64,000 bases of DNA from Roseivivax jejudonensis (lineage in GTDB: Bacteria > Pseudomonadota > Alphaproteobacteria > Rhodobacterales > Rhodobacteraceae): the NCBI RefSeq assembly GCF_900172265.1, contig NZ_FWFK01000001.1, positions 806,001 through 870,000 on the forward strand. The letters run 5' to 3'. Below the pieces are notes generated by a model. That model was given only the letters and a program-made list of their open reading frames with translations. It was not told the origin of the DNA and made no database searches. Positions 46,602-64,000 of the stretch are shown here, one piece after another. The position numbers and the translations under genes were made by a program. The stretch's first letter is position 1. Every line of letters starts with the position of its first letter.

Positions 46602-47732
46602 ATGAGCGGCGGCACGATCACGATGATCGGCTGCGGGTTCGTGGCCGATCTCTACGCCCGCGCGTTGGCACTCCATCCCGAGATTCGGCTCGCCGCGGTT
46701 TGGGACCACGATCCGGCTCGACTTGCAGCGTTCGCCGCCCATTGGAGCCTGCCCGCGGCGCGCAGCCTCGATGATGCGCTGGCGTCCACGCCGGCGGACG
46801 GTCTGGTGCTCAACCTCACGAACCCGGCCGCGCATTTCGATATCACCGCCGCCTGCCTGTCGAAGGGCCGGCACGTCTACTCGGAAAAACCGCTGGCCCC
46901 CGATCTCGACGAGGCGCGCGACCTTGCCGCGCGCGCCGCCACAGCGGGACTGCAGCTGGGCTCGGCGCCCTGCTCGGTCCTTGGGGAAGCGGCGCAAACC
47001 CTCGGCCACGCGATCCGCTGCGGGGTCGCCGGCACACCCCGCGCCGTCTACGCCGAGCTCGACGACGGGTTCGTGCCGCAGGCCGCCTATCGCAAGTGGA
47101 TCTCCGAAAGCGGCGCGCCCTGGCCGTTCGAGGACGAGTTCCGCACGGGCTGCACGCTGGAACATGCCGGGTACTACCTGTCGTGGCTGATTGCGTGGTT
47201 CGGCCCGGTTCGTACCGTGGTCGCCGCGTCGTCCGAGACCGTTCCGGACAAGGAGGGCACCGGGCCCATGGCGCCGGACCTGTCCGTCGCGACCCTCTTT
47301 TTCGAGACCGGGCCGGTGGTGCGGCTCACCTGCTCGATCGTCGCCCCGCACGATCACCGGATCCGGGTCATCGGCGACGGCGGTATCCTCGAATGCAACG
47401 CGGCCTGGGACAACAGCGCGCCGGTGCGCTTTCGCCGTCGCGTGACCCTGCGGCGCCGGCTCATCGAATTGCCGGTCGGCCGCCGGATCCGCCTTGGCCG
47501 CGAAACCCACCCCAAGGTCGGGCGCTGGGGGGCGGCGTCGATGAACTTCCTCCTCGGCCCGGCCGAAATGCTGGAGGCCATCGCCGCCGGTCGCCCGAGC
47601 CGCCTCGGCGGCGACTACGCGCTGCATCTGACCGAGGTGACGCTCGCGATCCAGAATTCCGGCGAAACGGCGGGCGCGCAGCGGATGACCACGACCTGCA
47701 CCGCGATGGAGCCGATGCCGTGGGCGAAGTGA
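46602..47732 (+). CDS. Gfo/Idh/MocA-family oxidoreductase
   Basis: 376-residue NAD(P)-dependent sugar oxidoreductase. Rossmann part MIGCGFVADLYARAL, and the conserved EKP in HVYSEKPLAPDLDEARDL; the C-terminal beta sheet domain follows (GPMAPDLSVATLFFETGPVVRLTCS). Probably acts on an activated sugar for a surface polysaccharide. Its stop overlaps the GTG start of the epimerase gene. A homologous pair of domains is fused in the protein at 50935. Confidence 0.85.
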   Translation: MSGGTITMIGCGFVADLYARALALHPEIRLAAVWDHDPARLAAFAAHWSLPAARSLDDALASTPADGLVLNLTNPAAHFDITAACLSKGRHVYSEKPLAPDLDEARDLAARAATAGLQLGSAPCSVLGEAAQTLGHAIRCGVAGTPRAVYAELDDGFVPQAAYRKWISESGAPWPFEDEFRTGCTLEHAGYYLSWLIAWFGPVRTVVAASSETVPDKEGTGPMAPDLSVATLFFETGPVVRLTCSIVAPHDHRIRVIGDGGILECNAAWDNSAPVRFRRRVTLRRRLIELPVGRRIRLGRETHPKVGRWGAASMNFLLGPAEMLEAIAAGRPSRLGGDYALHLTEVTLAIQNSGETAGAQRMTTTCTAMEPMPWAK

Positions 47733-48694
47733 ACGGCAACGACGCGACCCGGATCGTCGTCACCGGCGCAAACGGGTTTCTCGGCCGGGCGATCCTTTCA
47801 GAGGCGCAGGCGCGCGGGCTGTCCGCCGCCGGCCTCGTCCGCCGCCCGGCTCCGGACCGTTCGGAGGCCGACGTCCACGTCTGCGATCTTGCCGCACCGG
47901 GCGCGGATCTCGTTCCCATGCTCGAGGGTGCGACGGCGGTGATCCACGCCGCGGCGCACCTTGGCGGAGACGCCGCCGCACACGAGCGAGACACGATCGG
48001 CGCGACCGATGCGCTGCTGGACGCGATGGCCGCCGCCGGTGTGCCGCGACTCGTGCTCGTCGGCTCCGTTGCGGTCTACGACACGATGGCCGTAGCCCCC
48101 GGAACCCGGATCGACGAGACCAGCCCCGTCGCGCCGCCGGAGCACGCCGCCGACGCCTACGCCGCCGCGAAAATCCGGCAGGAGGCGGTGGTCAGCACGC
48201 GCACGTCCGCAGCAGGAATCGCCCTGACGATCCTGCGCGCCGGGGCCGTCTACGGCCCCGGCCGGCTCTGGAACGCGCATCTCGGTGTCGGGCTCGGTCC
48301 GGTCCTGATCCGCTTGGGAAGGGGCGGCGTGGTGCCGCTGGTCGACCGCGCCCGCGCGGCCCGCGCGCTCGTCGACGCGGCGGAGGGACGCGCCGGGGAC
48401 GGCATCCTGAACCTTCTGGACGACGATCTGCCCGACCGGGCCCGGTTTCTCGACGCGATGCGGGAGACGGGCTGGCCGCGCGCGGTCCTGCCGCTGCCCT
48501 GGCCGACGCTTGTCCCCGTCGCGCGGGCGCTGCGCGGCTGGCAGGGGCGTCCGGGCCTTCTGCGCGAGGCGGCGCTGCGTGCGCGCATGGCGCCGTTTCT
48601 CTGGCCCAACGACCGGCTGCGGTCCGCACTTCCGGATCGCGACCGGGGCACCTTCGCCGCCCGGTTCGCCGCTGCGGCGGGGGGCGCGCAATGA
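47729..48694 (+). CDS. NAD-dependent epimerase/dehydratase
   Basis: 321-residue extended SDR. Nucleotide motif VVTGANGFLGRA, VIHAAAHLGG, catalytic Ser in LVGSVAVYD, and YAAAKIRQE (YxxxK). The GTG start at 47729 overlaps the preceding TGA as GTGA; an in-frame GTG at 47720 is less likely. Likely modifies an NDP-sugar; the substrate is not readable. Its stop overlaps the GT4 start (ATGA). Confidence 0.85.
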   Translation: MNGNDATRIVVTGANGFLGRAILSEAQARGLSAAGLVRRPAPDRSEADVHVCDLAAPGADLVPMLEGATAVIHAAAHLGGDAAAHERDTIGATDALLDAMAAAGVPRLVLVGSVAVYDTMAVAPGTRIDETSPVAPPEHAADAYAAAKIRQEAVVSTRTSAAGIALTILRAGAVYGPGRLWNAHLGVGLGPVLIRLGRGGVVPLVDRARAARALVDAAEGRAGDGILNLLDDDLPDRARFLDAMRETGWPRAVLPLPWPTLVPVARALRGWQGRPGLLREAALRARMAPFLWPNDRLRSALPDRDRGTFAARFAAAAGGAQ

Positions 48695-49953
48695 CGCGTC
48701 CGCGACTGGCCTACCTCACAGGGGAATATCCCCGCGCGTCGGACACGTTCATTCAGCGCGAGGTGGCGGGGCTGCGCGCCGTGGGGCACGACGTCCTGAC
48801 CTGTTCGGTACGCCGCACCGGGCCCGAGCACCTCGTCGGCCCCGAGCAGCGCGCCGAACAATCCGCCACCTTCCACGTGCTGGAGGCCGCGCGCCGGCCC
48901 GCAACGCTGCTCGCCGCGCACCTGCGCTGGATGCGCGCGCCGCGCCGCTACCTGGCAGCTCTCGGGCTGGCCTGGCAAACCGCGCCGACCGGACTGCGCG
49001 GACGGCTTTACAACCTCATCTACTTCGCGGAAGCCGCGGTTCTGGCCGCCCACCTGTCGGATCGGGGCGTCAGCCACCTGCACAATCACATCGCCAAGTC
49101 ATCCTGCACCGTCGCGATGCTCGCCTCGGCCCTGTCTGGTCTGCCCTACAGCTTCACGATCCACGGGCCGGACATCTTCTTCGCTCCCGAGCATTGGCGG
49201 ATCGACGAAAAGGCGCGGCGCGCCCGCTTCGTTTCGTGCATCTCGGATTTCGCGCGCTCGCAGCTCATGTGCTTCGCCCCGACCGAGACGTGGCCGCGGC
49301 TGCACGTGATCCATTGCGGCGTGGACCCCGATCGTTACGCCGCCCGCCAAGCCACCGCGCCCGGCACCCGCCTCCTGTTCGTCGGGCGGCTCGCGGGGGT
49401 GAAGGGCGTGCCGCTCCTGCTCGACGCGGTGGCCGCGCTCGCGCCCGCACATCCCGAGCTTGCGCTCGATCTCATCGGCGATGGGCCGGAGCGCGCGGCG
49501 CTCGAGGCGCGGGCGCGCGATCTGGGCATCGCGGCGCGCTGCCGCTTCCTCGGCTACCAGGGGCAGGACGAGGTCGCACGCGCGCTCGGCGAAACCGACC
49601 TTCTCGTGCTGCCGAGCTTCGCCGAGGGCGTGCCGGTCGTCCTGATGGAGGCGCTCGCCGCTGCCGTCCCGGTGGTCACCACACGCATCGCCGGCGTTCC
49701 CGAGCTTGTCGAAGACGGCGTGCATGGCCGGCTCGTGCCGCCCGGGGACGGCACCGCCCTCACCGCGGCGATCGACGCGCTCCTGCAAGACCCCGAGGTC
49801 CGGGCCCGGTTGGGGGCGGCCGGTCAGGCCAAGGTCCGCGCCGGCTACGACGCGGGAATCGAGGCGCGGCGCCTCGCCACGCTCTTCGCCGCCTACGCGG
49901 GCGGGCCGACGCCGGCGGCGCCGCCCGCCAAGCGGCCGGAGCCCACCGCATGA
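48691..49953 (+). CDS. GT4-family glycosyltransferase
   Basis: 420 residues, GT-B fold. N-terminal YLTGEYPRASDTFIQREVAGLRAVGHDV is typical of exopolysaccharide GT4 enzymes; the donor-binding part has LLFVGRLAGVKGVPLLLDAV, LIGDGPERAALE, and the E-x7-E motif in PSFAEGVPVVLMEALAAAVPVV. It lies in a plus-strand operon with overlaps on both sides. Confidence 0.9.
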   Translation: MTRPRLAYLTGEYPRASDTFIQREVAGLRAVGHDVLTCSVRRTGPEHLVGPEQRAEQSATFHVLEAARRPATLLAAHLRWMRAPRRYLAALGLAWQTAPTGLRGRLYNLIYFAEAAVLAAHLSDRGVSHLHNHIAKSSCTVAMLASALSGLPYSFTIHGPDIFFAPEHWRIDEKARRARFVSCISDFARSQLMCFAPTETWPRLHVIHCGVDPDRYAARQATAPGTRLLFVGRLAGVKGVPLLLDAVAALAPAHPELALDLIGDGPERAALEARARDLGIAARCRFLGYQGQDEVARALGETDLLVLPSFAEGVPVVLMEALAAAVPVVTTRIAGVPELVEDGVHGRLVPPGDGTALTAAIDALLQDPEVRARLGAAGQAKVRAGYDAGIEARRLATLFAAYAGGPTPAAPPAKRPEPTA

Positions 49954-50921
49954 GCGTGGTCGATCTCGTGCTCATCGGGCGCAACGAGGGCGCGCGCCTG
50001 CGTGCCGCCCTCGCTTCGGCAAAGGGGCAGGCCCGGCGCCTCGTCTACGTCGATTCGGGCTCCACCGACGACAGCGTCGAGGCCGCGCGCGCGGCGGGGG
50101 CCGATGTCGTGACGCTCGACATGTCGGTGCCCTTCACCGCGGCACGCGCCCGCAATGCCGGAGCGTGGCACCTGCTCGAGTCGCCCGACCCGCCCGACTA
50201 CCTGCAGTTCATCGACGGCGATTGTGCGATCGTGGCCGGCTGGATCGCCGACGGCGCAGACCGGCTCGACGCCGCGCCGGAGCTTGGCCTCGTCACCGGC
50301 TGGCGCGCCGAGACCGCGCCGGAGTCGAGCGTGTACAACCACCTGTGTCACTGGGAATGGCGGCGCCCGGCGGGCGAGATCCGCGCCTGCGGCGGCGACA
50401 TGCTTGTTCGGGCGGCGGCCTTCCGCGCCATCGACGGCTTCGACCCGACCGTCATCGCCGCAGAGGACGACGAGTTCTGCGCCCGCCTCCGCAAGGCCGG
50501 CTGGCGGCTCGAACGGCTCCCCCGGGAGATGACCCGCCACGACGCCGCGATGACCCGGTTCGGCCAGTGGTGGCGCCGCGCGGAACGGACCGGCCACGGC
50601 TTCGCTCAGGTCGGGCACCTGCACCCCGACACCTTCGTCACGGAGCGGAGGCGCGTTGTGGTCTACGCGCTCGCCCTGCCGCTCGCGGTCGGCGCGGCCC
50701 TCGTGGTTGCGCCGTGGGTGGCTGCGGTGCTGGTGCTGGCCTACCCGCTGAACTGGTCGAAGAGCACTGCCGGCCTGCGGCGCGACGGGATCGCGCCGGA
50801 CGCCGCCCGCCGGCTCGGCCTGCTGCTGACCCTGTCGAAGTTTCCGAACCTGATCGGCATGGCGCGATTTCACCTGCGCCGCATGCGCCGCGCCCCGATG
50901 CGGCTGATCGAATACAAGTAA
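49950..50921 (+). CDS. GT2-family glycosyltransferase with C-terminal membrane segment
   Basis: 323 residues. GT-A fold: VDLVLIGRNEGARLRAAL, YVDSGSTDDSVEAA, LQFIDGDCAIVAGWIAD (DxD-like) and EDDEFCARLRKAGWRLERLP. Two hydrophobic segments at about residues 235-272 (VVVYALALPLAVGAALVVAPWVAAVLVLAYPL) suggest membrane association. Overlaps the GT4 gene by 4 nt; followed after 13 bp by the oxidoreductase-epimerase fusion. Confidence 0.88.
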   Translation: MSVVDLVLIGRNEGARLRAALASAKGQARRLVYVDSGSTDDSVEAARAAGADVVTLDMSVPFTAARARNAGAWHLLESPDPPDYLQFIDGDCAIVAGWIADGADRLDAAPELGLVTGWRAETAPESSVYNHLCHWEWRRPAGEIRACGGDMLVRAAAFRAIDGFDPTVIAAEDDEFCARLRKAGWRLERLPREMTRHDAAMTRFGQWWRRAERTGHGFAQVGHLHPDTFVTERRRVVVYALALPLAVGAALVVAPWVAAVLVLAYPLNWSKSTAGLRRDGIAPDAARRLGLLLTLSKFPNLIGMARFHLRRMRRAPMRLIEYK

Positions 50922-50934
50922 GCGAGATCACACC

Positions 50935-53022
50935 ATGACCCCTACCCGCATCGGCCTGATCGGCGCCGGATACATTGCAACCTGGCATGCGGACGCCATC
51001 GCGGCGACCGACGGCGCAAACCTCGCCGCCGTCTGCGACACGTCCGGTGCCGCCGCCCGCGCGCTGGCCGAGCCCCGCGGCGTGCCCGCCTACGACAGCC
51101 TCGCGGCCCTGATCGACAGCGGAACCTGCGATGCGGTTCACATTCTGACCCCACCCGACAGCCATCTCGCGCTCGGGCTGCAATGCCTCGAGGCCGGGCT
51201 CGACGTTCTGATCGAGAAGCCGGCGGCGCTGAGCGCCGACGAAACGCGACAGCTGCGCGATGCGGCGCACCGTGCGGGGCGGCACTTCCGTCCCGGTCAC
51301 AACTTCCTCGGTCTGCCATCCTACTCGCGGTTGAAGGCGCTGGTCGCCTCGGGCGACCTCGGTCGCGTATCGGCGGCCGAGATCACGTGGGCGCTGCCCC
51401 TCGCGCCGCTGCGCTCTGGGCCGTACAACCTCTGGCTCCTGCGCGAACCGAAGAACCTGCTTCTGGAGATCGGACCGCACCTTGCGGCGTTCGCGGTCGA
51501 CCTGTTCGGCCCGCTCGACGTCATCGCCGCCGACGCCTCGAAGCCGGTCATGCTGCCCGGCGACGACCCCCGGCCGCAGAGCTTCCGGATCCTCGCACGG
51601 GCCGGCGATGTCGACGTGACGTTGAGCCTGAGCATGGTCGAGACGGTGGACGACCGCTCGGTGACACTGCGCGGCTCGTCGGGGCGCGCGCGGCTCGACT
51701 ATGCCGCCGACACGCTGGTGGTGGAGCGAGAGAACGCCTCCGACCTCGTGCTGAACCCTTTGCGCCGCCAGATCGCGCTGGCGCGCGGCCATGCCCGGGA
51801 GGGACTCACCAACGCCGCGATCCAGGTGCGCTCGCTCAACATGCGCTCACCCTACGCACAGAGCTTTCGTGGCATGTGCGCGGCGATCTACGGCTCCGCG
51901 CCCGATGAGCGCTACGACGCCGACAACGCCGTACAGGCGATGCAGGCGCTCGATGACGCGCTCGCGCTTTTGCCGACGGACACGCTTATCCCGAAGGCAC
52001 CGGCGGTGGCGACGCGCGCGCCGCGGCCGACCGCGCTCGTGATCGGCGGAACCGGCTTCATCGGGCGCGCCCTGACCCGCGCGCTCGTGGCCCGCGGCAC
52101 CGACGTACGCGTGCTGTCGCGCGGTCGCCACGGCCCGTTCCCGGATCTGCCCGATTCCGTCGAGACCGTCGGCGCGTCCCTGAAGGATCGCGCCGCGCTC
52201 GTTCAGGCGATGGACGGCATCCGCCACGTCTACAACCTCGCCCGCGCGCTTGGCACGAACTGGCAGGACTGCCTGGACAACGACGTCGCCCCGGCGGTCA
52301 CCATCGCCGAGGCCGCGCTGGAAGCCGGGGTCGACCGGCTGGTCTATACCGGCACGATCGCGAGCTACGACATGTCGGACCGCTTCGGCCGCATCACCGA
52401 GGCAAAGGGCTTCCCAAACGACATGACCGACCGCAATCTCTATGCCCGGTCCAAGGCCGAGTGCGAACGCCGCCTCATGCAGATGCATCGCGAGAGGGGC
52501 CTGCCGCTGACCATCGCGCGGCCAGGCATCGTCGTCGGGCCGGGCGGGCCGCTGCAGCACTGGGGCATCGGCCGCTGGCACGGGGCCGGCGCCGTGCGGA
52601 TCTGGGGCCGCGGCGACAACATCCTGCCCTTCGTCCTGAACGACGACGTGGCGGACGGCCTGATCCGCATGGCCGAAAGCGATGTGGCCCTGGGCGAGGA
52701 TTTCAACCTCGTGGGCGAGCCGATGCTGACGGCGCAAGGCTATTTCCGCGCGATTCACGAGCGTCTGGGCGCACGGATCCGCGTTTCCACCGGAAACCTG
52801 ACCGCCTTCTGGGCGGCGGATGCGGTCAAGGCGACGCTGAAGCGACGTGCGCTCGGGCGGCGCGACGTGATCCGTCCGTCGCGCGCCGACTGGATCAGTC
52901 GCGCGCACCTGTCGCGCTTCGACAATACGAAACCCAAGGACCTGCTGGGCTGGCAGCCGGTGTCGGATCGCGAGGCGTTTTTGCGCGCAGCGATCGACGA
53001 TGCTGGCCTGTTCGGCTTTTGA
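50935..53022 (+). CDS. Oxidoreductase (Gfo/Idh/MocA) - epimerase (SDR) fusion protein
   Basis: 695 residues with two enzymes in one chain. Residues 1-350 are a Gfo/Idh/MocA oxidoreductase (RIGLIGAGYIATWHADAI, VLIEKPAALSADETRQL); residues 365-695 are an NAD-dependent epimerase/dehydratase (ALVIGGTGFIGRALTRAL, YTGTIASYDMSD, NLYARSKAECE). The same two families occur as separate adjacent genes at 46602-48694. Fusion suggests they act in sequence on one sugar substrate. It ends the plus-strand operon, with a small hairpin after it. Confidence 0.88.
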   Translation: MTPTRIGLIGAGYIATWHADAIAATDGANLAAVCDTSGAAARALAEPRGVPAYDSLAALIDSGTCDAVHILTPPDSHLALGLQCLEAGLDVLIEKPAALSADETRQLRDAAHRAGRHFRPGHNFLGLPSYSRLKALVASGDLGRVSAAEITWALPLAPLRSGPYNLWLLREPKNLLLEIGPHLAAFAVDLFGPLDVIAADASKPVMLPGDDPRPQSFRILARAGDVDVTLSLSMVETVDDRSVTLRGSSGRARLDYAADTLVVERENASDLVLNPLRRQIALARGHAREGLTNAAIQVRSLNMRSPYAQSFRGMCAAIYGSAPDERYDADNAVQAMQALDDALALLPTDTLIPKAPAVATRAPRPTALVIGGTGFIGRALTRALVARGTDVRVLSRGRHGPFPDLPDSVETVGASLKDRAALVQAMDGIRHVYNLARALGTNWQDCLDNDVAPAVTIAEAALEAGVDRLVYTGTIASYDMSDRFGRITEAKGFPNDMTDRNLYARSKAECERRLMQMHRERGLPLTIARPGIVVGPGGPLQHWGIGRWHGAGAVRIWGRGDNILPFVLNDDVADGLIRMAESDVALGEDFNLVGEPMLTAQGYFRAIHERLGARIRVSTGNLTAFWAADAVKATLKRRALGRRDVIRPSRADWISRAHLSRFDNTKPKDLLGWQPVSDREAFLRAAIDDAGLFGF

Positions 53023-53176: not shown

Positions 53177-54280
53177 ATGGCCGACCGACCGAAGTTTCGC
53201 CGCCGCCGCGGCCGCACGCCGGAGCGCACTGAAGACGACGATCTGCGCCCCGTTCCGCCGCTCGAAACACGCGCGGAACGCCTGGAACGCCGGGAGGCCG
53301 AGCGCCGCACCGACGATCGGCGCGAGTTCGACCGCGGAGAAACGGACCGGCGCACCGCCGAGCGGCGCGCGGCCGATCCCGACCCCGCGCCGGCCGTGGC
53401 CAAGGCGCCGGAGGCCGCAAGTCCGGGCGCGATCGAGACGCCTGCGCCTTCGACCGCTGACGCCGCGCACGCACCGGCCCATGCAACCACGCGGGCGGTG
53501 GCGCACGATGCGCAGGATACGGCGCGTCAGACCCTTCCGGCTGCCGACGACCCCGAGCGGCTCTGGGCCAGCATGCCAAGCTTCGCGGTCGATGACCGCG
53601 CGCTCGAGCGCAACCGCATCATCAGCGCCAGCCGCAGCGATCCCGCACACGTGTCCTTCGACGTCCTGCGGACGCGGATCCTGCGGGCCTTGTCGGATCG
53701 TCAGTGGCGGCGCGTCGCGGTGACCTCGCCCACGCCGGGCTGTGGCAAGACTTTCACCCTCGCCAATCTCGCGATCTCGCTGTCGCGCCAGGCGGATCTT
53801 CGCAGCGTGGTGCTCGATCTCGACATGCGGCGGCCGGAACTGCACCGGGTGTTCGGGATCAAATCACCCAAATCGATCGGCGACATGCTGCGCGGCAAGA
53901 CCCTTCCCGAGCAGCACCTGCTCCGGCTGGGGCCGAACGACTTTCACGCAGGGCGCAGCATCGCCTTCGGCTTCAACGGCACGCCTGAACCGTTCGCGGC
54001 AGAGCTCCTGCAGGATCCGAAGACGGCCATCGCGCTCGACATGATCGAGGCGAGACTCAAGCCCGACGTCATGCTGTTCGACCTGCCGCCGGCGCTTTCG
54101 GGCGATGACGTGCTCGCCCTCCGGCCGCATTTCGACGCCGTCCTGCTGGTGGTGGGCGGTGGCGTCAGCGCGCAAAGCGACGTGCGCGAGGCGGAACAGC
54201 GCCTCGGTGCCGACACGCCGCTTCTCGGCGTGGTGCTGAATCGCGCCGAAGGCATCAACGAAAAGAAATACGCTTACTGA
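53177..54280 (+). CDS. Polysaccharide biosynthesis BY-kinase-like ATPase
   Basis: 367 residues. The N-terminal 150 are unusual: charged (ERLERREAERRTDDRR) then Ala/Pro-rich and probably disordered. The C-terminal domain has a P-loop VTSPTPGCGKTFTLANLA, the Walker A' SVVLDLDMRRPELH and DVMLFDLPPAL, as in the cytosolic part of CpsD/ExoP/Wzc kinases. The C-terminal tyrosine cluster is reduced to KKYAY. It probably controls polymer length or export together with the Wzz protein encoded convergently at 54297-55622. Tyrosine-kinase activity is not certain. Confidence 0.82.
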   Translation: MADRPKFRRRRGRTPERTEDDDLRPVPPLETRAERLERREAERRTDDRREFDRGETDRRTAERRAADPDPAPAVAKAPEAASPGAIETPAPSTADAAHAPAHATTRAVAHDAQDTARQTLPAADDPERLWASMPSFAVDDRALERNRIISASRSDPAHVSFDVLRTRILRALSDRQWRRVAVTSPTPGCGKTFTLANLAISLSRQADLRSVVLDLDMRRPELHRVFGIKSPKSIGDMLRGKTLPEQHLLRLGPNDFHAGRSIAFGFNGTPEPFAAELLQDPKTAIALDMIEARLKPDVMLFDLPPALSGDDVLALRPHFDAVLLVVGGGVSAQSDVREAEQRLGADTPLLGVVLNRAEGINEKKYAY

Positions 54281-54296
54281 GGCCCGCGCAGGGCGC

Positions 54297-55622
54297 TCAG
54301 AATTCGGTGCGCCCCGGCAGCAGCCGCTCGATCAGGCCCGCATCGCCGAGCCCGGCGCTCACCGCACGCAGGGCTGCGATCACCGCGAACACCAGCGCCA
54401 GCAGCCCACCGGTCCAGAGCCAGCGACGCCGGCTGTGATCGCGGCGCGACCGGACGGTGGGAATGGACACGACCGGGACGATACCAAGCTGGTGCTCCAT
54501 TTGCGCCGGCGTGCGGATCACCGGACGCGCGATCTCGAGAAGCAGCGCCAGCCCGAGCGCGAGGAACAGGCTTGCCACGCCGCCGGCCGCCGCGACCTTG
54601 CGCTTGCTGCGCGAGATCGAGGTTTCCGGCGGCAGCGCCGTTTCCAGCACCTCGTACCGGTCCGATGCCTCGCGCTCGAGCAGGACCTGCGCCATCTCGG
54701 CGTCGGCGCGGCGGCGTCCGACAACGGAATACCGCTCCTGCAACTGGTCGAGCTCGCGCTCGAGCCCGGCGAGCGTCCGTTCGATCTCGGGCGCGCGGGC
54801 GATGTCCGCCTCGATCCGGTCGATGCGCGCCTCGATCAGGCCCTTCTGCTCGTTCAGAAGATCGACCTGCCGCTCCTGGCTGGCGGCGCGCAGACGCGCC
54901 GCGTTGTTCTCGAGCGCCAGGATCTCGCGGTCGAGCGTCAGGAGCTGGTCGCGCAGCGCGGCGAGTTGTGTCCGCAGCGCCTCGAGCCCCTCGGGAAGCG
55001 CGTCGGAGTTCTCTCGCTTGAAATCGGCAATCTCGTTCTCTGCCTCGGAGATCTCGGTCGCGACGCGCGCGGCTTCGGCATCGAAGAACGACAATGTCTC
55101 GGCGGTGCGCGTGGCGCTGCGGCTGCGGGCCTGCGCGATCACCGAGCCCATCAACTCGTTCGCGACGGCCGCCGCGTCCTCGGGATCGTCGAGGCGGACG
55201 GTGATGCTGAGCCCCGAGGGCACGACATCGGTCTGCCACGGCTGCGCATTGCCGCGCAGCTCGTCGAGCGTGATCGCGGAGCGCAACATGAATACCCGTT
55301 CGCTGAACGAAACCGCGTCGGGAAAGAGATCGAAGGTGTCGAGGATCTCGATCAGGTTGTCGCGGGCCATCAGCCGCTGCTCGATCAGGCGAACGCGGCG
55401 GCTTGCTTCGCGCCCCGTGGCCTGCGCCGTCATCGAGTCGGTCATATCCTCGGTGACGCGCGCGTCCTCGATCTGCACCACCGCGGTGGCCTCGAACAGC
55501 TTGCCCTGCTGCGACGCGATGAACACCGACGCTGCGCAGCCCAGCACGAACACGAGCACGATGAGGAACGCGCGACGCCGCAGCGCCGCGAAGACCTCGG
55601 ACAGGGACTGAAACTGGCTCAT
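54297..55622 (-). CDS. Wzz/GumC-type polysaccharide chain-length protein
   Basis: 441 residues. A membrane segment near residues 18-38 (FLIVLVFVLGCAASVFIAS), a periplasmic domain with long coiled coil (about 180-340: EISEAENEIADFKRENSDALPEG and many Leu/Glu/Arg heptads), then two C-terminal membrane segments (GGVASLFLALGLALLLEIARPVI; WLWTGGLLALVFAVIAAL). This is the Wzz/co-polymerase fold without the kinase domain, which the neighbouring gene probably supplies. It faces the BY-kinase gene (16 bp between stops), so the two are not in one operon. Confidence 0.87.
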   Translation of the reverse strand: MSQFQSLSEVFAALRRRAFLIVLVFVLGCAASVFIASQQGKLFEATAVVQIEDARVTEDMTDSMTAQATGREASRRVRLIEQRLMARDNLIEILDTFDLFPDAVSFSERVFMLRSAITLDELRGNAQPWQTDVVPSGLSITVRLDDPEDAAAVANELMGSVIAQARSRSATRTAETLSFFDAEAARVATEISEAENEIADFKRENSDALPEGLEALRTQLAALRDQLLTLDREILALENNAARLRAASQERQVDLLNEQKGLIEARIDRIEADIARAPEIERTLAGLERELDQLQERYSVVGRRRADAEMAQVLLEREASDRYEVLETALPPETSISRSKRKVAAAGGVASLFLALGLALLLEIARPVIRTPAQMEHQLGIVPVVSIPTVRSRRDHSRRRWLWTGGLLALVFAVIAALRAVSAGLGDAGLIERLLPGRTEF

Positions 55623-55781
55623 GTCGTCACTCTCGCAAAGGTGCCCCCGATGCGCGGATCGGGGCATTGAAGCGCGTTTCGCGGCAACCCTGCCCCCATC
55701 CTGCCTCAAACTTATCGCCGCGGCCGCTTTCTTGCCACGTTATAAACCGCGATTGACGGAAACAGCGCGTTTCTCAGACGC

Positions 55782-55842: not shown

Positions 55843-58800
55843 TCAGGCGCGTCGGCGGGCCCGCATTTCGCGCCGGCGGGCCATCGCATCGCTGCGCGTC
55901 TGCGCCCGCTCGTTGGCGTTGACCGGAGTGGCCCCGGCCGCCTCGCTCACCACGCTCCCCGACAGTTCGGCCACCCGCGCAGCGAGGTCCGACAACACCG
56001 GGAAGCGGAAGATATCCGTGATCGAGAGGTCGGGAACGCCCAGCTCTTCACGGATGGCGCGATGCGCCTGCACCGCGAGCAGGGAATGACCGCCGAGATC
56101 GAAGAAGCTGTCCCGCGCGCCGGGTGTCGCCACGCCCAGGACGCGCGTCCAGACCGACGCCACGCGGGCCTGCACGGCGGAAGCGCTGGCCGCCGGAACG
56201 ACGGTGCCGGCGCGGCTCATGGCCGGCCGCTGTTCGGCGGCCGGGGCCGACCGTGCCGAGCGCGCGAGTTCCGGCGCGGGCAGCGCGCCACGATCGACCT
56301 TCTTGTTCGGCGTCAACGGAAACGCGTCGAGCCTGATGAACCGGCGTGGCACCATGATCTTCGGCAGCATCCGCGACAGCGCTTCCCGCAGCGCCACGTC
56401 GGCCTGCGGCGCTCCGGTGTAGTACCCGACCAGCCGCGTGTCGCCCGGCCGATCCTCGCGGGCGAGCACGACGGCCTGCTGCACGCCCGGCTGGCTCTCG
56501 AGCGCGGCCTCGATCTCTCCGAGTTCGATGCGGTGGCCGCGGATCTTGACCTGCGTATCGACGCGGCCGACGAAATCGATCCGGCCGTCCGCGCGACGCC
56601 GAACGAGATCGCCCGTGCGATACATCCGCCCGCCGTGGAACGGGTTGTCGACGAACCGTTCCGCGGTCAGCTCGGGCCGGTTCCAGTAGCCGCGGGTGAC
56701 CCCCGCACCGCCGATCCACAATTCGCCCGCCACGCCGACGGGCACCGGCGCGCGGTCCGTGTCGAGGACATAGAGCTGCGTGTTGGCGATCGGCCGGCCG
56801 ATGTTGACGACGCCCGGTCCGGGCTGGGCCGGCTCCACCGACGACCAGATCGTCGTTTCGGTCGGCCCGTACATGTTGGAGATGCGCGCCCGTGTGATCG
56901 ACTCGAAATCGGCGACCATGGCCCCCGGCAGAGGCTCGCCGCCGAAGAAAAGGTGCCGCACGCGCGACAGTGCAAACCGCGCCTCGTCGTTCATCGCGAT
57001 CATGCGCGCCATCGACGGCGTGCATTGCAGGTGGGTCACCTTGTGCCGGACGATCTGCGCGGCGATCGAGAAATCGTCGCGCGCGGGCTCCGCATCGGCG
57101 TTGGCTCGCGCAACCACCTCGGCCAACGGCCGCAGCCCGTCGAGGATCGTATCCGGCGCGATGCCGTAATCGATCAGGCAGGCGATCTCGGTCACGCCGA
57201 TCCCGCGCAACTCCTCGGCGCGGGCGACGGCATCGTCCACGGTGCCAAACAGGCCGCTTTCGTTGAAGTACCGTTCGAACGCGAAGTCGAGGATCCCCTC
57301 CAGCTCGTCCTCGGACAGCGACCCGAGGTCCAGCTGCATCGGGTTTTCGACGCCCTTGGGCTTCTTGAAGGCGGGAAACGCCCAAGCATATTGCTTGATG
57401 AGGCCCGCCGCCGAGCGCAGGTAATCCTTCATCGGCTCGCGCGCGACCTCGCGCGCGGCCTCGCGCGTCTCGGCGAGGTAGGTGTGCAGCATCAGCGTCA
57501 CACTGCGCTCCGACGGATCGTGGCCGGCCTCGCGCAGCGCATCGTGATAGAGCGCGATCTTCTCCTTCACCTCGTCGACCGATTGCCCGAGGAGATGCGT
57601 CAGGACGTTGGCGCCCAGCCGCCCGGCTTCCTTCCAGGTCTCGGGATTGCCCGCGGTGGTGACCCAGACCGGCAGCTCCTTCGACACCGGCCGTGGCTGT
57701 GTCACAACCTCTTGCGGTGTGCCGTCCTGCTTCGGGAATGCCACCGCCTCGCCGCGCCAGAGCCGGCGCAGGACATCGATCGTCGAGATCATCGCGGGCT
57801 TGTTGGCGGGCGGCGTGTTCTCGGGGCGCAGGACGAAGTCGTCCGGCTGCCAGCCGGACGCGATGGCGAGGCCCGCGCGACCGTTCGTGAGGTTGTCGAT
57901 GACCGCCCATTCCTCGGCGATGCGCGCGGGGTGATGCAGCGGCGCGACGCAGGATCCGGCGCGCACGCCGATCTTTTTCGTCATTCCGGCGACGGCGGCA
58001 CCGGTGACCGACGGGTTCGGGTAAGGACCACCGAAGGCGTGAAAGTGCCGCTCCGGCGTCCAGACCGCCACGAACCCGTTCTCGTCTGCAAAGCGCGCGC
58101 CCTCGAGAAGCGTACGGTACTTGTCCGGGCCGACCCCGTCGTCGTTGCCCCAGTAGTAGAGCGAGAACTCCATTCCGCCGCGACCGAGCCGTCCGCCCGA
58201 GATCATGCCGCGATCGGCGTCCGAGCTTAGCACGACGGTGTAGCCGCGCGCGGTCGCGTAGAAGAGTTCGAGCACCGAGATGTCGAAGCTCAACGATGTC
58301 ACGGCGAGCCAGGCGCCGCCGGGCTCCTGCACGTGCGCGTCCATCCCGGCGTAGAAGTTCGCGACGTTGCGGTGTTCGATCATCACGCCCTTGGGCACCC
58401 CGGTCGAGCCGGAGGTGTAGATCAGGTACGCGAGATCGTCCGGGCCGGACCGGGGCGCCGGCGCCTGCGTCGGCGCGGCGGCGAGCCGTGGATCGGTGTC
58501 GAGGACGAGCGTGTCCGCGTCCGTCTCCGGCAAGGTTCCGGCGAGCGCGGATTCGGTGACGACGACCCGCGCGCCGCTGTCCGACAGGTAATGGCGCAGG
58601 CGGTCGGCCGGATAGGCCGGATCGAGCGGCAGGTAGGCGCCGCCGGCCTTCAGTATCGCGTATGCCGCGACGACGAGGTCCGGCCCGCGCCGGCAGCACA
58701 GCCCGACGACGACGTCCCGACCGACACCCATGTCGCGCAGGACATGCGCCGCCGCATTCGCCCGCGCGTCGAGCGCGGCGTAGCTGATGCGGGTGTCCTC

Positions 58801-60390
58801 GAACACGAGCGCCGTAGCATCCGGCGTGCGCGCCACCTGCTGCTCGAACAGCGCGTGCATGGTTTCGGGCGCGACGGGCGTCTCGGTTTCGTTCACCGCC
58901 TCGAGAACAAAGCCGCGTTCGCTCTCGGGCATGATTGGCAGAGGCGCGTCGCGCTCCGTCTCGGCCAGCGCGACGAGCCGCGCGGCGATCATTTGCGCGA
59001 AGGCGGCATCGACCCGGCCGGTATCGGCATGCAGCGTTGCTCCAGCCTCCGTCAGCTCGACGGTGATCGCCGCGCCGGGCACCGCGCCCGCGCCCTCGGA
59101 CAGACCGATCGCCGGCGTGGCGAGGGCGCGCAGCGCGGGATCCCGCAACCGCAGATCACGCGCGAAGCCGCCGCGATCCGCGATCGCGCCGCGCGCGTCG
59201 GCGAGGCCGGCGGCGATGTCGGTCAGCGTCCCGGCCCCGGTCACCTCGAGCGGCACCCAGCCGGCAACCAGCCCGTCCTCGGCCAGTGCCGCGATCTCGG
59301 CGTCGCGAAAGGCCAGCGAGGGCGTTGCGCCCTCGGCGCCGAATTGCGCCAGCGCGGCCACGACCTCGTGCGGCAGTCGCGGCAGCGGAAGCGCGATCAG
59401 CTCGCCCGCGCCCGTGCCGGCGCCGTGCACCACGGCCGGCACCATGCGCGACAGCCGCGCGCGCCAGAACCCGTCGTACCGCGCCACATCCGTTTCGTCG
59501 GCGCGGGGGCCGGCCACGACCGCATTCACCGGAAGCACGGCGTCGAGTTCCGCATCAGCGCCCTCGAGCGTGGCGACCGACACCGACAGGGCGCCGCGAC
59601 CGCAGGCGATGACCGCCCGATCGCCATCATGGCGAAGCACCGTGCCGGGTGCGCCGTCACCCGCAACGGCCTCGGCCGCCGTCACTGCCAGAACGGCTCC
59701 GGAAAGGCGGAGCTTCGGCACGCAGAGCGGGTTCCAGTAGCCGCCGTGATCCAGCGCGCGGCACAGACGTGCCAGATCGTCGGCCGGCCGTGCGGGGTCG
59801 AGGACACCCTGTCCCTCCGGCCGATCGGCCTTGGCGTGATAGGTGCGGCGCGACAGGTCCTGCGGGGTGCGCTCCGGCGCGCCGGTTTCCAGTTGTGCCA
59901 GCAGCGTATCGAAGGACGCAAACGCGGCCTCGAAACACTTCATGTTCAGCGTGAGGGCGGTGTCGCGCGGCCCGATCTCCACAGCCTGCGCGGCGAGGAT
60001 GTCGCCTTCGTCCACGCCGCCCTCGATCACGTGCCAGGTGATGCCGTGCCGGGCCTCGCCCTCGATCAGCGCCCAGACCGGCGCGTTGAGCCCGGCATGC
60101 CGCGGCAGCGGGCCGTCGTGAAAGTTCACGGCGCCACGGGCCGGAACCGCCAGCGCGGTGTCCGGTATCACGTCGAGGTTGGCCACGCTCAACAGCCAGT
60201 CGCAGGCCGGAAGTGCCTTGGCCGCGTCCTTCGGCGCGAACACGGCAAGCTGCGCCTCGCGCGCCCAGTCCGCCACGGCGTCGGACCGGGTGACCACCGC
60301 AACGATCAGATGCCCACGCGCGACCAGCTTGCGGCCACACTCCACGGTCAGCGTATCGTTGCCCCAGAGGACGGCGGTGAATGCACTCAT
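55843..60390 (-). CDS. NRPS: formyltransferase - truncated C - adenylation domain interrupted by luciferase-like monooxygenase - PCP
   Basis: 1515 residues. (1) 1-230: methionyl-tRNA formyltransferase-like domain; Asn89, His91 and Asp127 (NFHDGPLPRHAG, GGVDEGD) keep the spacing of the Fmt triad. (2) 300-490: looks like the C-terminal remnant of a condensation domain, no HHxxxDG. (3) 505-725: adenylation core with YTSGSTGVPKG and A4 FDISVLELF. (4) 738-1095: inserted FMN-dependent luciferase-like monooxygenase (EFSLYYWGN, WTPERHFH). (5) 1100-1375: rest of the adenylation domain (NMYGPTE, YRTGDLV, NKKVDR). (6) 1405-1475: carrier protein, Ser1436 in DLGGHSL. Matches the MupA/Atu3671 monooxygenase-NRPS type. 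No thioesterase. Last gene of a minus-strand operon. Confidence 0.9.
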   Translation of the reverse strand: MSAFTAVLWGNDTLTVECGRKLVARGHLIVAVVTRSDAVADWAREAQLAVFAPKDAAKALPACDWLLSVANLDVIPDTALAVPARGAVNFHDGPLPRHAGLNAPVWALIEGEARHGITWHVIEGGVDEGDILAAQAVEIGPRDTALTLNMKCFEAAFASFDTLLAQLETGAPERTPQDLSRRTYHAKADRPEGQGVLDPARPADDLARLCRALDHGGYWNPLCVPKLRLSGAVLAVTAAEAVAGDGAPGTVLRHDGDRAVIACGRGALSVSVATLEGADAELDAVLPVNAVVAGPRADETDVARYDGFWRARLSRMVPAVVHGAGTGAGELIALPLPRLPHEVVAALAQFGAEGATPSLAFRDAEIAALAEDGLVAGWVPLEVTGAGTLTDIAAGLADARGAIADRGGFARDLRLRDPALRALATPAIGLSEGAGAVPGAAITVELTEAGATLHADTGRVDAAFAQMIAARLVALAETERDAPLPIMPESERGFVLEAVNETETPVAPETMHALFEQQVARTPDATALVFEDTRISYAALDARANAAAHVLRDMGVGRDVVVGLCCRRGPDLVVAAYAILKAGGAYLPLDPAYPADRLRHYLSDSGARVVVTESALAGTLPETDADTLVLDTDPRLAAAPTQAPAPRSGPDDLAYLIYTSGSTGVPKGVMIEHRNVANFYAGMDAHVQEPGGAWLAVTSLSFDISVLELFYATARGYTVVLSSDADRGMISGGRLGRGGMEFSLYYWGNDDGVGPDKYRTLLEGARFADENGFVAVWTPERHFHAFGGPYPNPSVTGAAVAGMTKKIGVRAGSCVAPLHHPARIAEEWAVIDNLTNGRAGLAIASGWQPDDFVLRPENTPPANKPAMISTIDVLRRLWRGEAVAFPKQDGTPQEVVTQPRPVSKELPVWVTTAGNPETWKEAGRLGANVLTHLLGQSVDEVKEKIALYHDALREAGHDPSERSVTLMLHTYLAETREAAREVAREPMKDYLRSAAGLIKQYAWAFPAFKKPKGVENPMQLDLGSLSEDELEGILDFAFERYFNESGLFGTVDDAVARAEELRGIGVTEIACLIDYGIAPDTILDGLRPLAEVVARANADAEPARDDFSIAAQIVRHKVTHLQCTPSMARMIAMNDEARFALSRVRHLFFGGEPLPGAMVADFESITRARISNMYGPTETTIWSSVEPAQPGPGVVNIGRPIANTQLYVLDTDRAPVPVGVAGELWIGGAGVTRGYWNRPELTAERFVDNPFHGGRMYRTGDLVRRRADGRIDFVGRVDTQVKIRGHRIELGEIEAALESQPGVQQAVVLAREDRPGDTRLVGYYTGAPQADVALREALSRMLPKIMVPRRFIRLDAFPLTPNKKVDRGALPAPELARSARSAPAAEQRPAMSRAGTVVPAASASAVQARVASVWTRVLGVATPGARDSFFDLGGHSLLAVQAHRAIREELGVPDLSITDIFRFPVLSDLAARVAELSGSVVSEAAGATPVNANERAQTRSDAMARRREMRARRRA

Positions 60391-60395
60391 GTCTC

Positions 60396-61391
60396 TCACT
60401 CCGCTGCCTGCGGACGCGCGGCAGGGCGAGCAGTATCGCCGGGCCGAAACAGGCGTCGCAGGTCATGGCGCACCAGCGTGCGCAGAAATCCCGGCGGATC
60501 CGCCGGCGGTTGTCGCTTTATCGTCTGCTTGAGCCTGTGCAACACGCCGCCGGCGAGATGCGCCGTGGTCGCGGCGGCGGCGTGCCACCGCCCTCCGGCC
60601 GTCTCGAAATAATGCCACCGGCTCGCGAACCAGTAATCCGGCACCCGGCTCCAGGTCTTCATGCCGGTCGAGACCGAGCCGATATGCTCCACGGCGCTCT
60701 CGCGCACGTAGTGGACCTCGTGGCCCGCCGCGCGCACCCGACGACACAGGTCGGTTTCCTCGTAGTAGAGAAAGAAGCTTTCGTCGAAGAGCCCGACGTC
60801 GTCGAGCACCGACCGGCGCATCATCATCGACGCCCCGGCGAGCCAGTCGACCCGCCGCGTCGCCTCGGGAACGTCCATCGGCACGCGCTGCCGCGCGAAA
60901 ACGCGCGAGATGAGGCCGATCCGCGCCGCGCCCTCGAACTCGGACGCCACGGAGGGGAAGCGGAACGACGTGATGTGGGGGTCGCCCTCCGGCCCGTGGA
61001 TGTAGCTTCCGGCGATCCCGGCCTCGGGATGGCCCTCCAGCCGGTCGAGGAGAATGCGCACCGCATTCGGCGCCGGAAAGGCATCCGAATTGAGGATGTA
61101 GACATAATCCGGCGCTTGGTCGTCGGCGCGCCCCGCGCGAATCCCCGCGTTCATGCCCGCGCCAAAGCCGCCGTTGTGCCCGCTCTGGATCACCCGAACC
61201 GGCACCGGCCAGTCCGCCTCGGCCACGCCTGTGCGCAGCGCCGCTTCCGACCCGTCGCCGGAATCGTTGTCGACCACCACGATTTCGCCGTCGAGACCCG
61301 ACATCGCCGTGGCCACGGCGCGCGTCGCACGCAGGGTCATGTCCGGCGTGCGCCAGTTCAGGACGACGGTCAGGAGGCGGGGGTCGCGCAT
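60396..61391 (-). CDS. GT2-family (rhamnosyltransferase-like) glycosyltransferase
   Basis: 331 residues, GT-A fold: LLTVVLNWRTPDMTLRATRA, VVVDNDSGDGSEAAL, SGHNGGFGAGMNAGIR, YILNSDAFPAP (DxD-like) and FLYYEETDLCRRVRAAGHEV, as in WbbL-type rhamnosyltransferases. Placed between PKS and NRPS genes, so it may glycosylate the product. ATG 61391 is favoured because GGAGTGACAGACATG mirrors the NRPS start (GGAGTGAGAGACATG); a GTG at 61400 that overlaps the PKS stop is the alternative. Confidence 0.87.
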   Translation of the reverse strand: MRDPRLLTVVLNWRTPDMTLRATRAVATAMSGLDGEIVVVDNDSGDGSEAALRTGVAEADWPVPVRVIQSGHNGGFGAGMNAGIRAGRADDQAPDYVYILNSDAFPAPNAVRILLDRLEGHPEAGIAGSYIHGPEGDPHITSFRFPSVASEFEGAARIGLISRVFARQRVPMDVPEATRRVDWLAGASMMMRRSVLDDVGLFDESFFLYYEETDLCRRVRAAGHEVHYVRESAVEHIGSVSTGMKTWSRVPDYWFASRWHYFETAGGRWHAAAATTAHLAGGVLHRLKQTIKRQPPADPPGFLRTLVRHDLRRLFRPGDTARPAARPQAAE

Positions 61392-61396
61392 GTCTG

Positions 61397-64000
61397 TCAC
61401 TCCGCCGCCTCGGCCACGCGGAATGGAAGAACGGTTCCGCGTTCGGCGTCGACGGCCTCTGCCCGCGCGATCGCCGCGCGCAGCTTCGCCGCGAGCACCC
61501 GCACATTGGGTTCAAGCACCATCGAATCGTGGTCGCCGGGCACCTCGTGCACCTCGACGCCCGGGACGAACCGGCCCCAGTCGTTGTCCGGGTAGAGATA
61601 GGCGCGCTGGTGATCGACCAGTCGGCCGCCCGACACCGTCCAGTACCCGCGCAGCGGCGGCCGGAACAGCGCGACGCGCCCGTCCCACGGCCGCATCTCG
61701 TACGCGCCGACTGCGCCGAGAAAGGCAGCCTCGATCTCGGCGTTGTGGAATGCTGTTTCCGCTGCCGTGCCGTCCCGCGCGCGGCGCTTCTCGATCTCCC
61801 ACGCGATTCGGTTGCGCGCCCACGTCACCGGGTAGCTCAGCCCCTTGCGGCGCAGCTCGTGCAGCTGGATCAACGCCCGGTCGCGTCCGCTCAACGGGGT
61901 GCGCTGCGGCAACGGCGTGTCGAGGAGGACGACAAGCGCCACCTGGTCGTCCATCGACTCGAGCTGGTGGGCGATCTCGTAGGCGGTGATACCGCCGCCC
62001 GAGAAGCCGCCGACGAGGTAGGGGCCCCGAGGCTGAACCTGCTTCATCTCGGCGATGTAGTCGCTCGCCGCCTCGGCCAGCGTCGCGTGCGGCGCCTCGT
62101 CACCATAGAGCCCCTTGGCCTGCAGCCCGTAGAACGGCCGGTCGGCCCCGAGCAGGTGCGCGAGGTGGCGCAGGTTGAGCACATTGCCGAACATCCCGGC
62201 GACGAGGAAGAACGGCGTCTGCGCCCCGCCCTCTCCGTCGTGCATCGCGACGATGTGCTTGAACCGCCGTTCCGGCCGGGTCTGGGCCGGCGTTTCGCCC
62301 GCGCCGCCGGTCCGCTCCTCGATCAGCGCGGCGCAGGCCCGGATCGTGGGCGCCTCGAACAGGATCGAGATCGGGAAATCGACGCGATATGCCTTGCGGA
62401 TCATCGCGAACAGCCGGACCGCGATCAGGCTGTGCCCGCCGAGATCGAAGAAGCTGTCCTCGACGCCGACGCGGGACACGCCAAGAAGCTCCTCCCAGTA
62501 GCCGGCGAGCGTCTTCTCGATCTCGGTCTCCGGCGCGGCGTAGTCGCTGTCGAGTTCGGGGCGCTCGAAGGTCTGGCCGGCGCCGCGCGCCTCCACGCTC
62601 TGGCCCGCCTGACGGGTCAGCGCATCGAGGTCCATCGACGACACCACCACCTGGCTCGGTCCGGCGGCCATGGCGCGCGCGAAGGCGTCCGCGCCCTCCT
62701 CGGGCCGGATCCCCTGTTCCAGGTTGTGGGCCAGCCGCTCTTCGGCCGGCGACAGCGGCTGAAGGCCGGCACCCGCCTCGGTCTCGATCTCCGCCGCGGT
62801 CACCTTCTGCGGCGCCGCGAGCCGGGCCGCGTCGTCGAGCCGACGGATCGTGAAGCCCTCGATCTCCACAAGAACGGTTCCGTCCGGCGCCGCCAGCGTC
62901 ACGTCGAACCGCGCGCTCTCGCCGTCGGCGCGGTTGTCGCCGGCATTGCGTACGTGGCTCACGATCCGTTCGCCCAGCGGCGCGTGGACGCGCACGCGTC
63001 CGTAGGACACCGGAACCCACAGATGCGTCGGGCGATACCCGGCAATCAGCTCCATCGCCCAGCCCGTCGCGATATCGAGGAGCGCGGGATGCAGCACGCA
63101 GCCGTCCTCGCGCGCCTCTCGCGGCAGCGACAGTTCGGCCACGCCTTCGCCGTCGCGGTGCGCGCGGCGATCCAGCACGCGCCAGCGCGGACCGAACGAC
63201 AGGTGCACCTCCTGCCCGGTGACGAGCTTGCGGCCCTCCGCGCTTTCCTGCGCCGGGCCGAGCCGCGACCACAGCGCGGCGACGTCGATCCGGCGCGGCG
63301 CGGGCCGGTGGCCCAGCGCGATGAAACCCTGCGCCGCCGGCACGAACCCGGTCTTCCCGCCGGCTGTGGCGTCGGCCAACAGCTCGAAGCCATAGCCGGC
63401 CTCATTCCGGGTCAGGCGCACGCGCACGTCCCGCGCTCCGCCCGCGGGCACGGCCACGGCGCGAAGGAACGTCAGGTCGCGCAACTCGAACGCCGCACCT
63501 TCTCCCTGCGCCGCCATCGCGTGCGCCGCGAGCGTGAGCGATCCCGTCCCGGGAAGCAGCGCCTCGCCTGCCGCGGTGCGATGTTCGTCGATGATCCAGT
63601 CGGCTTCGGACACCCGCGTGTCGAACGTGCGTCGGCCCTCCCGGTCAAAGCTCGCCGTGCCCAGAAGCGGCAGGCCGGTGTCCGCCCTGGGGGCGGGCTC
63701 AACCTCGCCCGTGCGCGCGGCCACCGCCTCGGCCGCCATGCCGACCTCCGACCAGATGCCCCAGTTGAGCGCGACCACGCGCGTGCGCCCGCCGGCCCGT
63801 GCCCGGGCAAAGGCGTTGAGATACTCGTTCGCCGCGACGTAATCGACCTGCCCGGCCGGCGCCGTCACGGTGGACGAGGACGAAAACAGCGCCATCCAGT
63901 TCAGCGACCCGTCCGGGAACAGCCGGCCGAGCACGTCTGTCCCGTGGATCTTCGGCGTGAACACGTCCTCGACGCTCGCCGGGCTCTTCGACAGGAGCGG
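61397..64000 (-). CDS. Type I polyketide synthase, C-terminal part (KR-DH-ACP-TE), cut by window edge
   Basis: 867 residues visible; the N-terminus (KS and AT expected) lies beyond the right edge. In order: the end of a ketoreductase (ALFSSSSTVTAPAGQVDYVAANEYLNAF, catalytic Tyr), a dehydratase (ADWIIDEHRTAAGEALLPG with catalytic His; LHPALLDIATGWAM with Asp), a linker with DAFARAMAAGPSQVVVSSMDL, an acyl carrier protein (DSFFDLGGHSLIAVRL) and a thioesterase (VGGFSGGGITAYEIAHQL, nucleophile Ser). KR before DH is not the common modular order. The TE should release the product. Confidence 0.9.
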   Translation of the reverse strand, partial: PLLSKSPASVEDVFTPKIHGTDVLGRLFPDGSLNWMALFSSSSTVTAPAGQVDYVAANEYLNAFARARAGGRTRVVALNWGIWSEVGMAAEAVAARTGEVEPAPRADTGLPLLGTASFDREGRRTFDTRVSEADWIIDEHRTAAGEALLPGTGSLTLAAHAMAAQGEGAAFELRDLTFLRAVAVPAGGARDVRVRLTRNEAGYGFELLADATAGGKTGFVPAAQGFIALGHRPAPRRIDVAALWSRLGPAQESAEGRKLVTGQEVHLSFGPRWRVLDRRAHRDGEGVAELSLPREAREDGCVLHPALLDIATGWAMELIAGYRPTHLWVPVSYGRVRVHAPLGERIVSHVRNAGDNRADGESARFDVTLAAPDGTVLVEIEGFTIRRLDDAARLAAPQKVTAAEIETEAGAGLQPLSPAEERLAHNLEQGIRPEEGADAFARAMAAGPSQVVVSSMDLDALTRQAGQSVEARGAGQTFERPELDSDYAAPETEIEKTLAGYWEELLGVSRVGVEDSFFDLGGHSLIAVRLFAMIRKAYRVDFPISILFEAPTIRACAALIEERTGGAGETPAQTRPERRFKHIVAMHDGEGGAQTPFFLVAGMFGNVLNLRHLAHLLGADRPFYGLQAKGLYGDEAPHATLAEAASDYIAEMKQVQPRGPYLVGGFSGGGITAYEIAHQLESMDDQVALVVLLDTPLPQRTPLSGRDRALIQLHELRRKGLSYPVTWARNRIAWEIEKRRARDGTAAETAFHNAEIEAAFLGAVGAYEMRPWDGRVALFRPPLRGYWTVSGGRLVDHQRAYLYPDNDWGRFVPGVEVHEVPGDHDSMVLEPNVRVLAAKLRAAIARAEAVDAERGTVLPFRVAEAAE

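Follow-up and report, generated by a model that had tools for sequence, protein, structure and literature searches.

A putative formylating and oxidising NRPS loading module beside polysaccharide genes in Rhodobacteraceae

Background

What is the role of a nonribosomal peptide synthetase (NRPS) whose adenylation (A) domain is split by a flavin oxygenase, whose N terminus is a formyltransferase, and which lies beside a polyketide synthase (PKS) and glycosyltransferases? We examined such a gene in a 64-kb stretch of Roseivivax jejudonensis DNA (positions 806001-870000 of its contig, in a genome of 4.31 Mb), referred to as the window in this text. Oxygenases within glycine A domains are already in print, namely in the form of MOX domains for myxothiazol, melithiazol and 38 Serratia/Pseudomonas pathways (PMC11342130), with corallorazine-like pathways included (PMC11342130, PMC9396620). 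In the route described there, hydroxylation of the alpha carbon is followed by loss of the amine, and a terminating TE frees glyoxylate (PMC11342130). Since these systems already have oxygenases in glycine A domains, there is nothing new in the insert as such. The loading role proposed below, the interleaved glycosyltransferase and the link to glycans look new: a formyltransferase-A(oxygenase)-PCP protein with this PKS and glycosyltransferase in polysaccharide clusters was not recognised in the mostly open-access literature that we searched.

Architecture of the NRPS

The NRPS reading frame (55843-60399, minus strand) gives 1518 aa when read from a GTG and 1515 aa when read from the ATG at 60390; its stop codon occupies 55843-55845. 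The 1515-aa protein is organized as follows:

55846..60390, minus strand: NRPS, in the order formyltransferase (F), linker X, A domain (N part), luciferase-like monooxygenase (LLM), A domain (C part), PCP, basic tail
59566..60390, minus strand: F domain, residues ~1-275, with N89, H91 and D127 (Formyl_trans_N, Pfam)
58951..59484, minus strand: linker X, residues ~303-480, degenerate; possible origin discussed below
58180..58878, minus strand: N-terminal part of the A domain, ending just past A4 (AMP-binding 515-726, Pfam, and the insert boundary)
57115..58167, minus strand: LLM insert, residues 742-1092 (TIGR04020, 478.2 bits, E 1.4e-143)
56266..57084, minus strand: C-terminal part of the A domain, with the remaining specificity-code residues (TIGR01733 1099-1308 and AMP-binding_C)
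55972..56166, minus strand: PCP domain, residues 1409-1473 (PP-binding, Pfam)
55846..55953, minus strand: basic C-terminal tail, with a MxxRRxxMR-type ending that recurs in the family loci inspected

A Pfam search of the protein returned Formyl_trans_N (64-153), AMP-binding in two stretches, Bac_luciferase (751-1067), AMP-binding_C (1292-1364) and PP-binding (1409-1473); neither a Condensation domain nor a TE was found in it. A preliminary description of this DNA had placed a monooxygenase within the A domain at 57106-58179 and a formyltransferase at the N terminus. Both domains are present, and positions 58179 and 57106 correspond to residues 738 and ~1096, the edges of the LLM. The finer borders had to be shifted. 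The A domain does not break directly after FDISVLELF, since about 25 further residues follow (to VVLSSDADRG), and it restarts about 70 residues ahead of NMYGPTE; the placement between the motifs that we take to be A4 and A5 stands. The same description had proposed a structure prediction of the split domain. Our AlphaFold2 model of residues 305-1390 has a mean pLDDT of 84.9 and a pTM of 0.69, and a second model of residues 1-492 has a pLDDT of 95.3 and a pTM of 0.90. Rfam and tRNA scans of the 64-kb window gave no matches.

A scan of genome contigs gave 549 relatives, of which the best 80 were kept. By organism name these are Rhodobacteraceae, with Hydrogenophaga flava (L083) as the exception. 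The NRPS frame is unbroken in 80 of these best 80 loci (1460-1604 aa), and chance or misassembly can therefore be ruled out as the origin of the split gene.

The F domain keeps N89, H91 and D127 in all 81 aligned NRPS, and its N-terminal position is that of a formylating F-A-PCP initiation module. One sequence from outside the family (L122) has F aligned at the catalytic H position in a pairwise alignment. The best solved sequence match of the window NRPS is LgrA (linear gramicidin), which shows the same F-A-PCP order. However, no oxygenase is named for LgrA, and linker X between F and A is a feature of the window NRPS. The LgrA crystal constructs carry a second module behind the PCP, whereas a PKS comes next in the window.

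Linker X might be what is left of one lobe of a condensation (C) domain, because C-A didomain structures align over a longer stretch of our model (~1150 columns) than A-only structures do (~880). We also considered a working C domain in this place and rejected it. Among eight linker X segments, Pfam gave a weak Condensation match in one (E 0.12) and none in the window's own, and a Foldseek search with the F+X model listed formyltransferase-type structures and no C domain among its first 50 matches. The PCP serine is present in 80 of the 81 aligned NRPS, the remaining sequence having an X there. That the basic tail serves as a docking element is a guess.

The oxygenase insert and the glycine code

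With 478.2 bits against a curated cut-off of 244.45 bits, the LLM is a member of TIGR04020 (NCBIfam), in line with its earlier assignment to the MupA/Atu3671 group. Its nearest solved homologue, PuwE (PDB 6ket, E 1.3e-97), is a separate chain of 362 aa, whereas the window LLM is built into the A domain. Column identity, averaged for each part of the NRPS, is highest in the LLM (0.841) and lowest in linker X (0.455). The position between A4 and A5 is that of MOX-type glycine A domains. With the corallorazine-like proteins and with MtaG (myxothiazol) and MelG (melithiazol), the window NRPS shares an oxygenase housed in a glycine A domain; the site in MtaG is presumably the same A4-A5 site.

The A domain carries the ten-position specificity code DILQFGMIWK, its positions being located by the GrsA numbering. 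Over the 81 aligned NRPS, we found DILQMGMIWK (42), DILQFGMIWK (27), DILQYGMIWK (7), DILQLGMIWK (4) and DILQFGLIWK (1), so that the pattern DILQ[MFYL]G[ML]IWK is common to all of them. A code of the same type is found in 7 of 7 outgroup A domains that carry an LLM insert. The window code differs at one position from DILQLGMIWK, the code of all four glycine-activating MOX domains described in PMC12283262, which also names fabrubactin. The A domain thus has a glycine-type code, as the preliminary description's link to glycine would have it, and judging from this code it very probably loads glycine. The LLM would then probably hydroxylate the glycine alpha carbon.

In a tree of 42 LLM domains (midpoint root, with a long-branch warning), the 35 domains inserted between A4 and A5 group together with a support of 94/81, just below the tool's star. 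This grouping would fit a single insertion event. One further LLM (L125:8062-10833) sits at a later site of its A domain, past most of the C-terminal part. It falls outside the A4-A5 group in the tree and therefore perhaps represents an independent insertion.

A conserved PKS-GT2-NRPS block

The genes around the NRPS in the window are:

61397..64000, minus strand: 3' part of the PKS; the remainder lies past the window end (PKS at L004:6397-12807)
60396..61400, minus strand: GT2 glycosyltransferase between PKS and NRPS (Glycos_transf_2 / Glyco_tranf_2_3)
54297..55625, minus strand: Wzz-like chain-length determinant, downstream of the NRPS (TIGR03007 at 1.3e-30, below cut-off; PF02706 just below cut-off)
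53177..54280, plus strand: polysaccharide tyrosine-autokinase-like ATPase (TIGR03018 at 2.8e-24 and TIGR01007, below cut-off)
46602..53022, plus strand: sugar and glycan genes, namely Gfo/Idh/MocA, epimerase, GT4 and a fused Gfo/Idh-epimerase (Pfam)

The adjoining PKS that had been noted before is, when completed, a one-module protein of 2136 aa with the order KS-AT-KR-DH-ACP-TE. It starts with the KS and finishes with the TE, and no loading domain was found ahead of the KS. The KS, AT, ACP and TE residues as well as the KR Tyr and Asn are intact in 76 of 76 aligned PKS; the KR Ser position holds S in 62, T in 13 and C in one. The DH has His and Asp in all 76, with a Gly at the position that is usually Gln or His.

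Among the best 80 of the 549 relatives, NRPS and GT2 are found in all 80 loci and the PKS in 79; in the exception (L016) the contig starts just ahead of the GT2. All 79 loci that reach the PKS show the order PKS-GT2-NRPS. The two gaps within the block range from -18 to 35 nt and from -13 to 33 nt in these 79 loci, as computed from alignment-based starts and with the PKS cut by the contig end in L031, L036, L051 and L056.

The block is also carried by a Phaeobacter (L077) and a Tritonibacter (L061). In P. inhibens T5 a PKS (Inhi_1972) and an NRPS (Inhi_1974) are reported, and the numbering leaves room for one gene between them (PMC4062626). By description, these genes and the PKS/NRPS genes of Tritonibacter mobilis (PMC11225332) may be the block described here. 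The accessible portions of both reports make no mention of a built-in oxygenase, a GT2 or a polysaccharide link.

We also observed some variants of the block. In L137 a further A domain and a TE directly follow the NRPS, so the assembly line may be extended in some species. A PPTase gene lies behind the NRPS in L076, L083, L084, L128 and L142. The betaproteobacterium Hydrogenophaga flava (L083) has the entire block with GT2, GT4, PPTase and a second NRPS, and the nesting of its LLM within the Rhodobacteraceae in the tree suggests horizontal transfer.

Polysaccharide genes around the block

On the minus strand, the order of transcription is GT2, flippase, PKS, a second GT2 (the one within the block), NRPS and the Wzz-like protein. 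The plus strand at the locus carries a GT4 and the autokinase-like ATPase and, farther left, the Gfo/Idh/MocA, epimerase and GT4 genes. By its gene content, the region around the NRPS is a polysaccharide cluster. Homologues of the Wzz-like protein and of the ATPase occur in 64 and 49, respectively, of the best 80 of 549 loci. For both proteins (53177-55625) the best-matching models are the XrtA (exosortase) versions TIGR03007 and TIGR03018, in each case with a score under the cut-off. An exosortase gene was not found near the cluster, the sole PF09721 match of the genome being on another contig (C9:194866-195609). The fused gene at 50935-53022 encodes 695 aa, with a Gfo/Idh/MocA oxidoreductase and a sugar epimerase/dehydratase domain. 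Past the window end, a gene (L006:4572-8015, minus strand) encodes a long protein that looks secreted and has a GHSL motif close to its mature start; this protein has homologues in 48 of the best 80 of 549 loci and is a possible polysaccharide esterase or acyltransferase. A short SGNH-like protein of L083 (22612-23553) was tried as its kin and discarded (blastp E 0.12, not significant).

We then took a sample of 149 Rhodobacteraceae genomes spread over genera. TIGR04020 is above cut-off in 53 of them, at 55 places, which leaves 54 LLM loci apart from the window. The GT2 is followed by the NRPS in 49 of these 54 loci, 47 of them with a whole PKS and two cut (L154, L172). In three of the remaining five (L134, L177 and L187) the NRPS gene is located upstream of the PKS gene and this GT2 is missing; L138 and L162 are cut. 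Homologues of polysaccharide genes outside the block were found in 49 of the 54 loci, a count that is partly circular for the Wzy-like query and one GT2 query, both derived from the block's relatives; if just the queries that stem from the window's genome are counted, 42 of 54 remain. As controls we took 20 stretches of 20 kb each in the window's genome, none of which was matched by the same queries. These controls were spaced by hand in this one genome and do not include its four other flippase matches. A flippase, chain-length, polymerase or glycosyltransferase neighbour is thus present in 49 of 54 family loci vs 0 of 20 controls. The arrangements vary (flippase/Wzz side, Wzy side, GT4 or GT2 side) and keep glycan genes beside the block. 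The loci without polysaccharide matches are L134, L147 (which has a GT4 by Pfam) and the cut L138, L162 and L187. Five of the loci with other neighbours encode a membrane protein that is 46-52% identical to the Wzy_C-matching protein of L076.

Related loci outside the family

TIGR04020 is above cut-off in 11 of 385 genomes of a class sample (five of them in the family) and in 19 of 398 genomes of a phylum sample (ten in the family), the two samples overlapping. Among 14 non-family loci, five encode F-A(LLM)-PCP with a KS-AT-KR-DH PKS, the genes being colinear in L121, L122 and L129 and divergent in L126 and L128. The NRPS gene lies upstream of the PKS on one strand in L121, L122 and L129, in L134 and L177 of the family, and in L187 within its contig. 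In the five non-family pairs, neither this GT2 nor any of the window's glycan genes gave a match; one of these pairs, L126, has a polysaccharide export gene. L129 has a further A domain after its block, with no TE match within the stretch.

The other non-family loci are built differently. L130 combines an A(LLM) domain that has a C-like N terminus (our own reading) with a divergent PKS. By blast and motif, L133 is of the C-A(LLM)-PCP kind. L125 is the locus with the later A-domain site mentioned above, and the LLM lies elsewhere in L108, L123, L124, L127, L131 and L132. In L130 (7342-12921) the A(LLM) domain shows a gap of ~1.2 kb within its C-terminal part, which is probably a second inserted domain. 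Methyltransferases often sit at this place of A domains.

Proposed function and alternatives

On present sequence evidence, the best reading of the NRPS is a formylating, oxidising loading module for the one-module PKS. This reading rests on the lack of C and TE matches in the NRPS, the formyltransferase-fold N terminus, the PKS that runs from KS to TE, and the gene order in colinear relatives. That the NRPS acts before the PKS is very likely. The A domain would load glycine onto the PCP, where the F domain, as inferred from its family, would formylate the nitrogen. The flavin oxygenase, again to judge from its family, would hydroxylate the alpha carbon of the formylglycyl unit. The resulting N-formyl-alpha-hydroxyglycyl group, or glyoxylyl upon collapse, would be handed to the KS of the partner PKS, which would add one malonyl unit, followed by reduction and perhaps dehydration. 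The TE would release or transfer a four-carbon acyl group such as 4-formamido-3,4-dihydroxybutanoyl, its unsaturated form or the corresponding gamma-lactone. In Rhodobacteraceae, this unit may be made for the adjoining exopolysaccharide as an acyl or glyco-acyl decoration, and the GT2 may act on the acyl unit or on a sugar bearing it.

Attachment to the exopolysaccharide is suggested by the glycan neighbourhood and by the GT2 between both megasynthase genes; on these grounds we put a role of the assembly line in exopolysaccharide at about an even chance. The GT2 is not needed for the NRPS-PKS chemistry, since colinear relatives do without it. Further points against the explanation are the unusual DH motif, the F aligned at the catalytic H position in L122, the five non-family pairs with neither GT2 nor glycan-gene matches, and L134 with its lack of polysaccharide matches. 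As a whole, an oxidised formylglycine loading module with a PKS serving exopolysaccharide remains our best explanation, to which we give roughly equal weight for and against.

Less probable, though a serious competitor, is an orphan secondary metabolite, i.e., a free small molecule (a signal, chelator or inhibitor) whose glycan neighbours reflect an old shared genomic region. The five non-family pairs without matches to the window's glycan genes are in its favor, as is L134 with no polysaccharide match, and two reports treat roseobacter PKS/NRPS genes as secondary metabolism (PMC4062626, PMC11225332). However, the glycan genes stay beside the block across its varied arrangements, and the GT2 is interleaved in most family loci.

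It seems unlikely that the hydroxylated N-formylglycine falls apart into formamide and a glyoxylyl-PCP that the PKS extends, with loss of the nitrogen. Such a collapse is described for MOX in glycine A domains (PMC11342130), but the formyl group would then be wasted although the F domain is conserved.

Formylation of an amino sugar of the polysaccharide instead of glycyl-PCP is very improbable. Foldseek matches of the F domain do include the sugar N-formyltransferases ArnA, FdtF, QdtF, WbkC and WlaRD, yet methionyl-tRNA formyltransferase is the top match, and the fusion of F to A-PCP, which LgrA shares, also occurs in the five non-family loci.

Most improbable is the chain release with a terminal amide that the preliminary description had drawn from MtaG and MelG: despite the same type of insert position and a near-identical code, Pfam finds no upstream C domain and no TE after the PCP in the NRPS (the TE sits in the partner PKS), F caps its N terminus, and in colinear relatives it lies upstream of the PKS, which most likely acts after it. 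By their descriptions, modules of the MtaG/MelG type act on a delivered chain, cleave it and leave an amide, which sets them apart from a module that begins with a formyltransferase and has a PKS next. As the main role, we reject amide release on domain order.

Implications

The loading-module reading can be carried one step further, tentatively and at slightly less than an even chance. The PKS-NRPS line would then be standing exopolysaccharide machinery of many marine Rhodobacteraceae, equipping the polymer, with the aid of the GT2, with an oxidised acyl group derived from N-formylglycine, which might be an N-acyl hemiaminal or resemble a formamido-butenolide. Within glycine A domains, such an oxygenase is known to serve chain release; here it is found in an apparent PKS loading module. 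Should the unit indeed become part of the exopolysaccharide, decorating a bacterial surface polymer would be a normal task of megasynthases, and a roseobacter gene block that is common but unassigned would gain a testable role in biofilms and attachment.
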